A stretch of 64,000 nucleotides of DNA. It comes from an uncultured Granulosicoccaceae bacterium (GTDB taxonomy: Bacteria; Pseudomonadota; Gammaproteobacteria; Granulosicoccales; Granulosicoccaceae). The stretch spans positions 62,001 to 126,000 of the forward strand of contig CALFCF010000009.1 of assembly GCA_937951345.1 (NCBI GenBank), in the 5' to 3' direction. Shown here one piece after another: positions 8,497-58,875 of the stretch; position 1 is the stretch's first letter; each line of letters opens with the position of its first letter. The notes under the pieces were generated by a model. The model ran no database searches, was not told where the DNA came from, and saw only the letters and a program-made list of their open reading frames with translations. Both the position numbers and the translations under genes were made by a program.

Positions 8497-8636
8497 GGGG
8501 CCTCTGATTTATTAGGCGAGGCAGGCAGGGCAAGGCGAAATTTGGCGAAAAAGCGGAGTGTATATGCGAATACATGGGCATTTTGAGCCGAATTTCAACG
8601 CAGCCCTGGCAACGCAGGCAATAAATCAGAGGTTCC
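8497..8636 (-). mobile_element. Element B copy 1 (140-bp MITE-like)
   Basis: A 140-bp element with 17-base inverted ends (GGAACCTCTGATTTATT at the right end read inward; the left end has GGGGCC instead of GGAACC). It is flanked by a TTAG target duplication (8493-8496 and 8637-8640). It is inverted relative to the two copies at 58.5 and 58.7 kb and nearly identical in sequence. It encodes no transposase. A 4-bp YTAR-type duplication is what IS5-group transposases leave, so it is probably moved in trans by such an enzyme (inference). It lies between the acyl-CoA dehydrogenase and enoyl-CoA hydratase genes. Confidence 0.88.
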
Positions 8637-37141: not shown

Positions 37142-37382
37142 CCTGCTTTATTCATGAAGGGTTCGCCACCAGAGTCTGGCTACCTAAGCAGGTCGCACGA
37201 TTCAGCGACATTCGTAGAAATCTACGGGTTGAGCTCAATCGAGTGAGCTGCGACGGTAGACGGGCACTGGTGGTGAATAGAAAACAGTGTGCGAATACCC
37301 ACAGCGACGCTAACACTGCTTTTCTAACTGGAAATGGCTTAGTTTTCATTGTCACTGTTTTCGCCTTCGTGAATAGAGCAGG
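37142..37382 (-). mobile_element. Element A copy 1 (241-bp MITE-like)
   Basis: Ends are 19-base inverted repeats CCTGCTYTATTCAYGAAGG. Flanking target duplication is CTAG (37138-37141) and CTAA (37383-37386), one mismatch. It is oriented opposite to copy 3. It is a few per cent different from the other copies and carries the same open 67-codon frame, but no transposase. It lies just upstream of the HMG-CoA lyase start. Confidence 0.9.
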
Positions 37383-40776: not shown

Positions 40777-41017
40777 CCTGCTTTATTCATGAAGGGTTCG
40801 CCACCAGAGTCTGGCTACCTAAGCAGGTCGCACGATTGAGCGACATTCGTAGAAATCTACGGGTTGAGCTCAATCGAGTGAGCTGCGACGGCAGACGGGG
40901 ACTGGGGGTGAATAGAAAACAGTGTGCGAACACCCACAGCGACGCTAAAACTGCTTTTCTAACTGGAAATTGCTTAGTTTTCATTGTCACTGTTTTCGCC
41001 TTCGTGAATAGAGCAGG
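40777..41017 (-). mobile_element. Element A copy 2 (241-bp MITE-like)
   Basis: Same 241 bp and same orientation as copy 1. Target duplication is CTAG (40773-40776) and CTGG (41018-41021), one mismatch. It begins four bases after the cadherin-like gene's stop codon. Eleven bases directly after the right-hand duplication (41022-41032, CCTGCTTTATT) repeat the element's own left end, suggesting a remnant of a second element. Confidence 0.9.
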
Positions 41018-42326: not shown

Positions 42327-44231
42327 ATGAACTTTGATCAATCGCTGCTTCTGACTTTATTTGTTTGCCTACTGGCAGCAGCGCTCGCCGTTCCGGGCGC
42401 GCAACGCCTCGGGCTCGGCCGGGCAGTCGGATTTTTAGCAGGTGGCTTCCTGGTCGGACCCTGGGGACTGGCGCTGGTGCGTGAACCGGATGAGTTACGG
42501 GTTCTCGCCGAATTTGCGACTGGTGTGTTGCTGTTTCTGATTGGATTCGAACTACAGCCGGCGTTGTTACAGCGCCTGAAGCACACAATGTTGACACGTG
42601 GGCTGCCATTTTGGGTTATTTCGACTCTGGTGTTCACAATGGTCGGGCTTACCAGCGGGCTTGGCTGGGCAAAGGCTGTTGCGGTTGCAATGGCACTTGC
42701 GTTGTCTTCTCACGCACTGGTTGCCGAGTTTATTGAATCAAAAAATTTGACTGGTTCGAGCCGGGGTGAATATGTGCTCGCGATGACCACCGCGCATGCA
42801 CTGCTGTTTCTTCCTCTGTTGATTTTATTGCCTCTACTTGGCTTTGGTAATCCGCTGGCCGAACCCGTCGGGCTTCATAATGTCCTCATTGATATTGTTT
42901 TGACTGTGCTTGTCGTGGCCGGTGGCCACTGGGTTTCGAAACACGTGCTGCGCTACATAACCGCGACGCAAGCGCCCGAGATGTTTCTAGCAGCAGTGTT
43001 GTTGTTGGTGTTCGGTGTGCTCTTGCTGTTTATTCAATTCGGTTCTTCCGCGCTGCTTGGAGCCTATCTGGCGGGTTGTGTGATGGCCGCTTCTGAATTT
43101 CGTCAGGAGCTTGCATCAACCTTACGACCGTGGCGAGGTTTGTTATTGGGTTTTTTCTTTTTCTCTCTGGGATTATCTGTTGATTTCGGTTTATTGTTGC
43201 GCTACCCGATGATTGTACTTGCCGTGTTGATCGTGATGTTATCCGTCAAGGTCTTAGTTGCTTTGGCGCTTGGGTATTTACAGGGGCACGGAAGCTCGCG
43301 GCCGCACTGGTTAAGTGTTTCTTTGTTGGCGCCTGCCGGGGAGTTATCGTTTGTAGCACTGTCTATCGCAATTGCTTTTCAAGCTGTTGATCGAGAGTTG
43401 GGCAGTGGGCTGGTTGTTGTGATTGTACTATCCATGATATTGATGCCGATTGTGCAGATCCTATACAACCGGCGGCGCGCTAGTGCTGTCAGCTTACTGC
43501 AGGATATCGAGGAAAACACCGAACCTAATAAGGTCGATGGGCCAAATACCGACCTTCAGGCTTCAGCGGCTGTTTATCCGAATGCCAGGGAGGTACCGTT
43601 ACTGATTGCGGGGTTCGGTCGTATCGGTCAGACCGTTTGTCGTCTGATGGTTTCAGCCGGTATGGAGCCTGTGCTGGTAGACCATGATCCTGAGAGACTG
43701 GCAGACGTTTCCCAAATGGGTTTTCGTACCTACTGTGGTGACGCACTGCGCCCTGAATTACTTGAATTGGCGGGTCTTGGTGGGATGACTGCTATGGTGA
43801 TTGCGATCGAGAATCACCGACGGTCGATGCAGCTGGTATCAATGGTGAGAGAGCATTTTCCGCATGTGCGTCTGGTTGTACGTAGTTCAGATCGTTACCA
43901 TCAGGTGGAACTGGCCAGCGCTGGTGTCATTGCATGCCATCGGGAGAATTATGAATCTGCTGTTCTGATGGGCGAGGACGCGTTGTCTGCCATCGGAATT
44001 GACTGGGAAGAGTCTGAGCGTATTTCAGAGGCATTTCGTGATCATGAAGCAAGACTGATTGAAACTGAAATCGAAATCGGGCGCTTGAAACTGGAGTCTG
44101 GTGAGCCGGTGTATAACCCATCGCTCGCGCTTGGATATACGCAGGTGGAGGCACAACTGAGCACGTTATTGTCACTCGACAATGATGCGTTCGAGCGGGA
44201 ACTGAAGCTTAAAACAGATCAGGATGACTAG
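42327..44231 (+). CDS. KefB/KefC-type CPA2 cation:proton antiporter
   Basis: A 634-residue CPA2 transporter with 12 or so membrane segments in the first 380 residues. A C-terminal RCK/TrkA-N domain follows, with the nucleotide site VPLLIAGFGRIGQTVCRLM (about 425-443). It resembles glutathione-gated K+ efflux proteins KefB/KefC. The TAG stop lies inside the CTAG target duplication of element A copy 3, so the transposon landed exactly at the stop codon without changing the protein. Confidence 0.92.
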   Translation: MNFDQSLLLTLFVCLLAAALAVPGAQRLGLGRAVGFLAGGFLVGPWGLALVREPDELRVLAEFATGVLLFLIGFELQPALLQRLKHTMLTRGLPFWVISTLVFTMVGLTSGLGWAKAVAVAMALALSSHALVAEFIESKNLTGSSRGEYVLAMTTAHALLFLPLLILLPLLGFGNPLAEPVGLHNVLIDIVLTVLVVAGGHWVSKHVLRYITATQAPEMFLAAVLLLVFGVLLLFIQFGSSALLGAYLAGCVMAASEFRQELASTLRPWRGLLLGFFFFSLGLSVDFGLLLRYPMIVLAVLIVMLSVKVLVALALGYLQGHGSSRPHWLSVSLLAPAGELSFVALSIAIAFQAVDRELGSGLVVVIVLSMILMPIVQILYNRRRASAVSLLQDIEENTEPNKVDGPNTDLQASAAVYPNAREVPLLIAGFGRIGQTVCRLMVSAGMEPVLVDHDPERLADVSQMGFRTYCGDALRPELLELAGLGGMTAMVIAIENHRRSMQLVSMVREHFPHVRLVVRSSDRYHQVELASAGVIACHRENYESAVLMGEDALSAIGIDWEESERISEAFRDHEARLIETEIEIGRLKLESGEPVYNPSLALGYTQVEAQLSTLLSLDNDAFERELKLKTDQDD

Positions 44232-44472
44232 CCTGCTCTATTCACGAAGGCGAAAACAGTGACAATGAAAACTAAGCAATTTGCAGTTAGAAAAGCAGTT
44301 TTAGCGTCGCTGTGGGTGTTCGCACACTGTTTTCTATTCACCCCCAGTGCCCGTCTGCCGTCGCAGCTCACTCGATTGAGCTCAACCCGTAGATTTCTAC
44401 GAATGTCGCTCAATCGTGCGACCTGCTTAGGTAGCCAGACTCTGGTGGCGAACCCTTCATGAATAGAGCAGG
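44232..44472 (+). mobile_element. Element A copy 3 (241-bp MITE-like)
   Basis: Forward-oriented copy with a perfect CTAG duplication on both sides (44228-44231 and 44473-44476). It follows directly on the antiporter stop codon. The 67-codon frame MTMKTKQFAVRKAVLASLW... seen in all three copies is on the plus strand here. Near-perfect ends and duplication suggest a recent insertion. Confidence 0.92.
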
Positions 44473-44569
44473 CTAGAGGGTCCGAAAATTACATCGGCTA
44501 TAAAATGATGTTGTAACCTGTGACGGATTGCGAGTGATTGCGGGTTTATAGACGTAAAAATATTTATGC

Positions 44570-44905
44570 ATGAGCACTAACATGGAAACCAATTCAAAAA
44601 CAGCGACAAAATCTGTAGGCGATGGACCGACGTCTTCCCTTACGGATCTTCTAAAGCAACACAATGTACCTTTATCGACCGTAAAGGCGAACAAGATTCT
44701 GCTTGAACTCGGGTTTTTGGCTGAAGCAGAACGCAAGAGCAGTGTTTCAGATAAAACCAAGAAGTACAAAGTTCTCACAGAATCTGGATTGAATTACGGA
44801 ATCAATCGTGAAAGCCGTCATTCTGATCAGACTTCACCCTACTATTTTGATAACAGTTTTGCTGAGCTGGCCCGGCTACTACTGAACGCTGTTGAGTCTA
44901 AATAA
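44570..44905 (+). CDS. Small conserved-looking protein upstream of selU
   Basis: A 111-residue protein. The N-terminus contains a helix-turn-helix-like stretch (SLTDLLKQHNVPLSTVKANKILLELGFL, about 25-52). The C-terminus has LTESGLNYGINRESRHSDQTSPYYF, a pattern seen in short phage-antirepressor-like and orphan bacterial proteins. It may bind DNA or RNA. An in-frame ATG at 44582 is an alternative start. selU begins about 20 bases after its stop, so they may be co-transcribed. Confidence 0.6.
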   Translation: MSTNMETNSKTATKSVGDGPTSSLTDLLKQHNVPLSTVKANKILLELGFLAEAERKSSVSDKTKKYKVLTESGLNYGINRESRHSDQTSPYYFDNSFAELARLLLNAVESK

Positions 44906-58489: not shown

Positions 58490-58629
58490 GGAACCTCTGA
58501 TTTATCGCCTGCGTTGCCAGGGCTGTGTTGAAATTCGGCTCAAAATGCTCATGTATTTGCATATACACTCCGCTTTTTCGCCAAATTTCGCCTTGCCCTG
58601 CCTGCCTCGCCTAATAAATCAGAGGTTCC
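58490..58629 (+). mobile_element. Element B copy 2 (140-bp MITE-like)
   Basis: 140 bp with perfect inverted ends GGAACCTCTGATTTAT and a perfect TTAA target duplication (58486-58489 and 58630-58633). It is in the same orientation as copy 3. It stands in the divergent promoter region between the DUF3429 and FAN1-like genes. Confidence 0.92.
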
Positions 58630-58735
58630 TTAACTTATTGACTGACCGAAGTGTTTAATCGGTTTTAACAATGAAGGTTCTGTTATAAATTCTGTTTTAA
58701 AAAAGTCAGCTTTAAATGGATCTGAACTAACCTGG

Positions 58736-58875
58736 GGAACCTCTGATTTATTGCCTGCGTTGCCAGGGCTGCGTTGAAATTCGGCTCAAAATGCTCATGT
58801 ATTCGCATATACACTCCGCTTTTTCGCCAAATTTCGTCTTGCCCTGCCTGCCTCGTCTAATAAATCAGAGGTTCC
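58736..58875 (+). mobile_element. Element B copy 3 (140-bp MITE-like)
   Basis: 140 bp with 17-base perfect inverted ends (GGAACCTCTGATTTATT). The target duplication is CTGG (58732-58735) and CTAG (58876-58879), one mismatch. It is 106 bases from copy 2 in the same direction and 98 bases before the FAN1-like start codon. Confidence 0.9.

Follow-up and report, generated by a model that had tools for sequence, protein, structure and literature searches.

Copies of a YTAR-targeting MITE lie on stop codons and at gene 3' ends in a Granulosicoccaceae genome

In the stretch of DNA analysed here (the window, 64,000 nucleotides from an uncultured Granulosicoccaceae bacterium), a forward-strand ORF at 42327-44231 encodes a KefC-like monovalent cation:proton antiporter of 634 aa. 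The product is of the CPA2 type, with the Pfam domains Na_H_Exchanger and TrkA_N, and its top NCBIfam match is KefC, with a score under the family cut-off. The ORF closes with the codons GAC-TAG, and this TAG (44229-44231) belongs to a CTAG (44228-44231) that is found again at 44473-44476. Between the two CTAGs stands a 241-bp MITE (element A copy 3, 44232-44472, forward strand), with its left end toward the antiporter. Its TIR has the form CCTGCTCTATTCA[CT]GAAGG; the ends of this copy, CCTGCTCTATTCACGAAGG and CCTTCATGAATAGAGCAGG, are inverted over 19 bp and flanked each by CTAG, and the repeats 44228-44250 and 44454-44476 are 96% complementary. The left CTAG of the 4-bp target duplication thus provides the antiporter stop codon, as a first-pass annotation of this DNA had proposed. 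Downstream lie a forward-strand ORF of 111 aa with no family assigned (orf111, 44570-44905) and then MnmH and SelD, all of them intact. The window also contains two reverse-strand copies of the element, one intergenic at 37142-37382 (copy 1, flanks CTAG/CTAA) and one at 40777-41017 (copy 2, flanks CTAG/CTGG), whose left CTAG abuts a TGA stop with 0 nt between them.

The antiporter orthologues of two species of the same genus, G002 (L174, 56% identity) and G001 (L175, 49% identity), close with TCC-TAG and GAC-TAG, respectively, at the position aligned to the antiporter stop, and carry no element; in both, orf111 follows kef. These stops are empty CTAG sites, demonstrated in two species, and the stop codon predates the element. 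Because the target duplication keeps an xxC-TAG stop in place, the antiporter protein is unchanged, in agreement with the first-pass annotation. The same annotation held that the downstream region had been replaced by the element, and this has to be corrected: that region was displaced by 245 bp, with its ORFs intact and in the gene order of the sister species.

The TIR of element A occurs six times in the window (at most 3 mismatches, 0.01 expected) and 222 times in the source genome (G000, 4.49 Mb in 115 contigs; at most 2 mismatches), with 0 matches for a reversed control, and an oriented left-end probe gave 92 genome matches. In the stretches examined we placed 118 units: 76 TIR pairs, and 42 lone TIRs of which many lie where a contig ends. 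Most pairs measure 238-242 bp, several owe a length of 385 bp to a second MITE (element B) that they harbour, and eight span 37-43 bp. CTAG is present on both sides in 51 of the 76 pairs, and two pairs bear matching TTAA/TTAA or TTAG/TTAG flanks, so that the 4 bp must be the duplicated target, of the type YTAR; these two copies rule out an IS630-type duplication of TA with the G and C as element ends. On the basis of its length, its 19-bp TIR, the presence of only 61- and 67-aa ORFs, its many copies with target duplications and the empty kef sites, we class element A as a non-autonomous MITE; its insertion sites are YTAR, for the most part CTAG, and these 4 bp are duplicated. CTAG is a rare sequence in this DNA, with 55 sites in positions 1-64000 versus 125 expected from dinucleotide shuffles. 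Lone TIRs inside contigs, considered as candidates for an autonomous copy, are truncated copies, and no convincing far TIR was seen in the stretches examined.

The eight 37-43 bp versions look like two ends placed back to back (C1:36190-36232 in L091, C9:137813-137855, C4:138490, C5:31045, C43:33814, C48:37128, C83:1842 and C107:36369), and their junctions at short GGCGAA/CGAA repeats suggest a stepwise internal deletion. In a relative of element A from G001 (L158, 1501-1747) both ends are altered alike (CCGGAACAATTCATGAAGG). Among the G001 relatives the internal stems vary between copies and are still complementary by eye, hinting at a kept or copied symmetry; in the alignment of the source-genome copies, the stem changes of the internal hairpin look independent, again by eye and with no count.

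To judge from its ends and flanks, element A is probably an IS1380-type MITE. In G027 (L205), a genome of the same bacterial family, an IS1380 transposase ORF stands between the ends TAGCCTGATCTATTCATGA and TAGCCTGGATTATTCATGA, each flanked by CTAG; compared with the element A end over 19 positions, the two have 1 and 2 mismatches. Two more IS1380 copies come from genomes of this family: the ends of the one in G022 are more diverged and have TTAG/TTAG flanks, and the one in G034 has CTAG/CTAA flanks. These elements have in common with element A the terminal repeats of CC[TC]G..TATTCATGA type and the YTAR flanks, but they are about 1.7 kb in length and carry a transposase, whereas element A has only 241 bp and none. 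Matches to the transposase family (PF13701, E <= 0.001) are present in 11 of the 57 genomes searched and in none of G000, G001 and G002; the G000 assembly being 95.5% complete, absence there is not certain. As ends and flanks match those of element A, IS1380 is the likely source, and since its transposase was not found in the source genome itself, we infer the mobiliser from the shared TIR and target duplication. The TIR of IS5 differs from that of element A.

Tabulating the insertions against stop codons genome-wide, a check that the first-pass annotation had proposed, disclosed an excess over the CTAG of non-coding DNA, and the lack of enrichment named there as a refutation was thus not observed. 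Gene calling used a simple ORF finder based on codon usage, for which 21 stretches of the source genome (464 kb) served as the training set. We classed, with the element removed, the sites of 62 copies having at least 304 nt on each side (the two-flank set, which leaves out 14 of the 76 pairs, with shorter flanks, and all lone TIRs), and identically, as background, the 339 CTAGs lying outside copies in the same 464 kb. The copies fell into 19 stop, 39 intergenic and 4 coding sites, and the background into 17 stop, 120 intergenic and 202 coding ones. Among non-coding sites, in-frame stops accounted for 19/58 copies versus 17/137 background CTAGs (OR 3.4, p 0.002), and the excess was found with a stricter gene-calling threshold (15/60 versus 12/158, p 0.001), with a looser one (20/58 versus 18/124, p 0.003) and with only those copies bearing CTAG on both sides (15/40 on stop, p 0.0008). 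As a local control, other CTAGs in the same flanks were on a stop in 3/33 cases (p 0.012). The outside base adjoining CTAG was A in 41% of the flanks versus 20% of the background (p 1.5e-6; 58 of the 62 two-flank copies, 116 flanks), and therefore targeting does not depend on CTAG only: the preference of element A is wider, around TCTAGA. The stop excess holds after stratifying on this neighbouring base (OR 4.7, p 0.0003).

Copies with a single usable flank, from which a coding site is unrecognisable, agreed with this result (11/56 sides on a stop versus 17/274 background sides, p 0.003); three of these sides, at C29, C58 and C62, have their flank in common with a member of the two-flank set, and the one at C58 is a counted stop. 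The genes ending at element A stops are real genes, 29 of the 30 having a Pfam domain, and they include DnaG, NusB, HscB, HisG and IlvD, to which RelA/SpoT and NusA are added when all sets are considered. Genes such as these are commonly essential, and their presence in the list means that insertion at the ends of such genes is tolerated.

The pattern extends to related genomes and to a second element. For relatives of element A in G001, G003 and G031, 8 of 21 YTAR sides coincided with a stop (p 8e-5 with the source-genome background as reference; for elements A and B alike, counts in relatives are restricted to sides that have a YTAR 4-mer and flanks of at least 304 nt), and 7 of the 8 genes concerned have a Pfam domain. 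Element B, a MITE of 135-140 bp with ends GGARCCTCTGATTTATT, is found in the window at 8497-8636 and 58490-58875 (70497-70636 and 120490-120875 of contig C9); it makes YTAR duplications, has 113 end matches in the genome and has a TIR unlike that of element A. It lies on TAA or TAG stops in 11/26 cases versus 103/1043 YTAR sites (p 2e-5; one copy nested in element A omitted), and all 11 genes have a Pfam domain. In relatives, however, only 1/15 element B sides was on a stop, and the source-genome pattern was not replicated. A coincidence, by which an element targeting CTAG would meet CTAG stops at the background rate, could account for the Kef case taken alone, but it is contradicted by enrichment in four non-identical sets (p 0.003 to 2e-5) and we hold it to be extremely improbable.

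The first-pass annotation also supposed that the elements are drawn to in-frame TAG stops, which the counts do not support. For element A, the ratio of sites on a stop to sites within 50 nt after it was 19:16, versus 17:16 in the background (OR 1.1, p 1.0), whereas both zones together were enriched over the remaining intergenic sites (OR 4.8, p 2.6e-6) and the coding CTAGs, which make up 202/339 of the background, were nearly unoccupied (4/62). Since the two zones are equally used, we read the pattern chiefly as a bias towards gene 3' ends, with the stop as its extreme case, combined with an avoidance of genes; selection, or a 3'-end bias of any kind, accounts for it better than recognition of the stop codon. 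For element B the stop did exceed the 50-nt zone (11:7 versus 103:180, p 0.045), but not when both elements were pooled (CMH p 0.15).

We believe that selection acting on the insertions of a YTAR MITE moved by IS1380 is the probable explanation for these results. An IS1380-family transposase would insert element A at YTAR, duplicating 4 bp; at a gene ending in xxC-TAG the stop would be retained after duplication and the protein would be the same, and insertions within genes, upstream of them or in other regulatory DNA would mostly be lost. The survivors would be those on the stop or in the first 50 nt or so beyond it, and copies would amass at 3' ends, the stop itself holding about one third. 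Such purging would explain both the 3'-end bias and the scarcity of coding insertions, and the non-coding stop excess backs the suggestion of the first-pass annotation that copies build up at gene ends without harm. Counting against this explanation are the 1/15 of element B in relatives, its preference for the stop over the following 50 nt (lost on pooling with element A), the flanking-base preference of element A, the negative search for a transposase in G000, and the lack of an age trend: older copies were not more 3'-biased than young ones (divergence of stop and near copies versus far ones, p 0.68), and slow purging might predict such a trend.

The main rival to selection is that the transposase itself prefers gene 3' ends, be it because DNA near terminators is melted, supercoiled or forms hairpins, or because access is linked to transcription, with stops being hit because YTAR contains TAA and TAG. 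The equal enrichment on and just after the stop, the missing age trend and the flanking-base preference would all agree with it, as would the finding, in the available text of PMC5493358, that in E. coli IS5 inserts preferentially at YTAR sites that melt easily. Nevertheless, targeting alone leaves the near absence from coding CTAGs unaccounted for, the GC content of the flanks was only slightly lower (0.434 versus 0.458), and the melted regions described for IS5 in that text are mostly promoter or other upstream ones, where the present elements are not enriched. We therefore regard it as a serious but rather unlikely account, and infer that selection and not targeting causes the 3'-end pattern.

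A third explanation is that copies are kept because they are helpful: a stop codon set into the base of a long element hairpin would stabilise or end the mRNA. Once transcribed, the element A stem would carry the stop codon at its foot, and each strand folds strongly (z -8.0 and -10.4), although this is expected for any inverted-repeat element. Of 25 copies on stops, 19 have their left end toward the gene (12:2 and 7:4, p 0.015), but in the 50-nt zone that follows a stop the orientation is 7:7. Similarly, five of the eight shrunken 37-43 bp copies, which hold little beyond the hairpin, are on stops, but the comparison with the rest gave p 0.10. Against this explanation, a search for terminator-like sites was negative; neither a terminator nor a promoter was detected in or beside element A, and the only Rfam match was a sub-threshold microRNA (18.9 versus 92 bits). 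We consider this retention improbable.

Elements of this type are already known. MITEPsy1 of Pseudomonas syringae, an IS5-type MITE of 100 bp and 6 copies, shares with element A its MITE nature and a 4-nt duplication of CTAG or YTAA, although its TIR is unlike that of element A and it is nearer to element B, whose target resembles that of MITEPsy1 and IS5; the available text describes no stop-codon pattern (PMC3189936). IS5 follows the same 4-bp target rule (Py-T-A-Pu, CTAG most frequent), but it is a full IS and is discussed, in the portion of the source consulted, for gene activation and DNA melting and not for stop codons (PMC5493358). In Coxiella, a QMITE2 copy at the 3' end of enhC also interacts with a stop, as a single in-frame case that lengthens the protein in one strain, and the available text contains no stop-preserving duplication or enrichment (PMC5896051). 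No report of a stop-codon excess was found in the literature searched, including the available texts of PMC3189936, PMC3281130, PMC4133298, PMC5896051, PMC4853749, PMC6382973 and PMC5493358. What is new here is the stop-codon landing pattern.

About one third of the element A copies that can be judged sit on stops, gene ends being most likely the least harmful place. Target specificity alone can make a harmless niche, as a 4-bp duplication that contains the stop admits the element to the ends of even essential genes, and the counts yield a simple rule that can be checked in any genome with YTAR-target elements. Because YTAR holds in-frame TAA and TAG and is duplicated, such MITEs might even constitute a class of stop-codon elements, setting the stop in a hairpin base, leaving proteins unaltered, spreading over a sizeable share of the suitable gene ends and being retained in some cases as mRNA structures at 3' ends, a generalization that we view as doubtful; element A was seen on the stops of 30 genes versus an estimated 164 or so free CTAG-ending genes.

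In exploratory counts, the copies at 5' sides also showed an orientation bias (13:2 within 150 nt). Finally, at C1:36186-36236 of the source genome (L091), two convergent genes called with the loose threshold, one of them scoring marginally, apparently use a single palindromic CTAG for the stops of both, and the insertion gives each gene its own CTAG.
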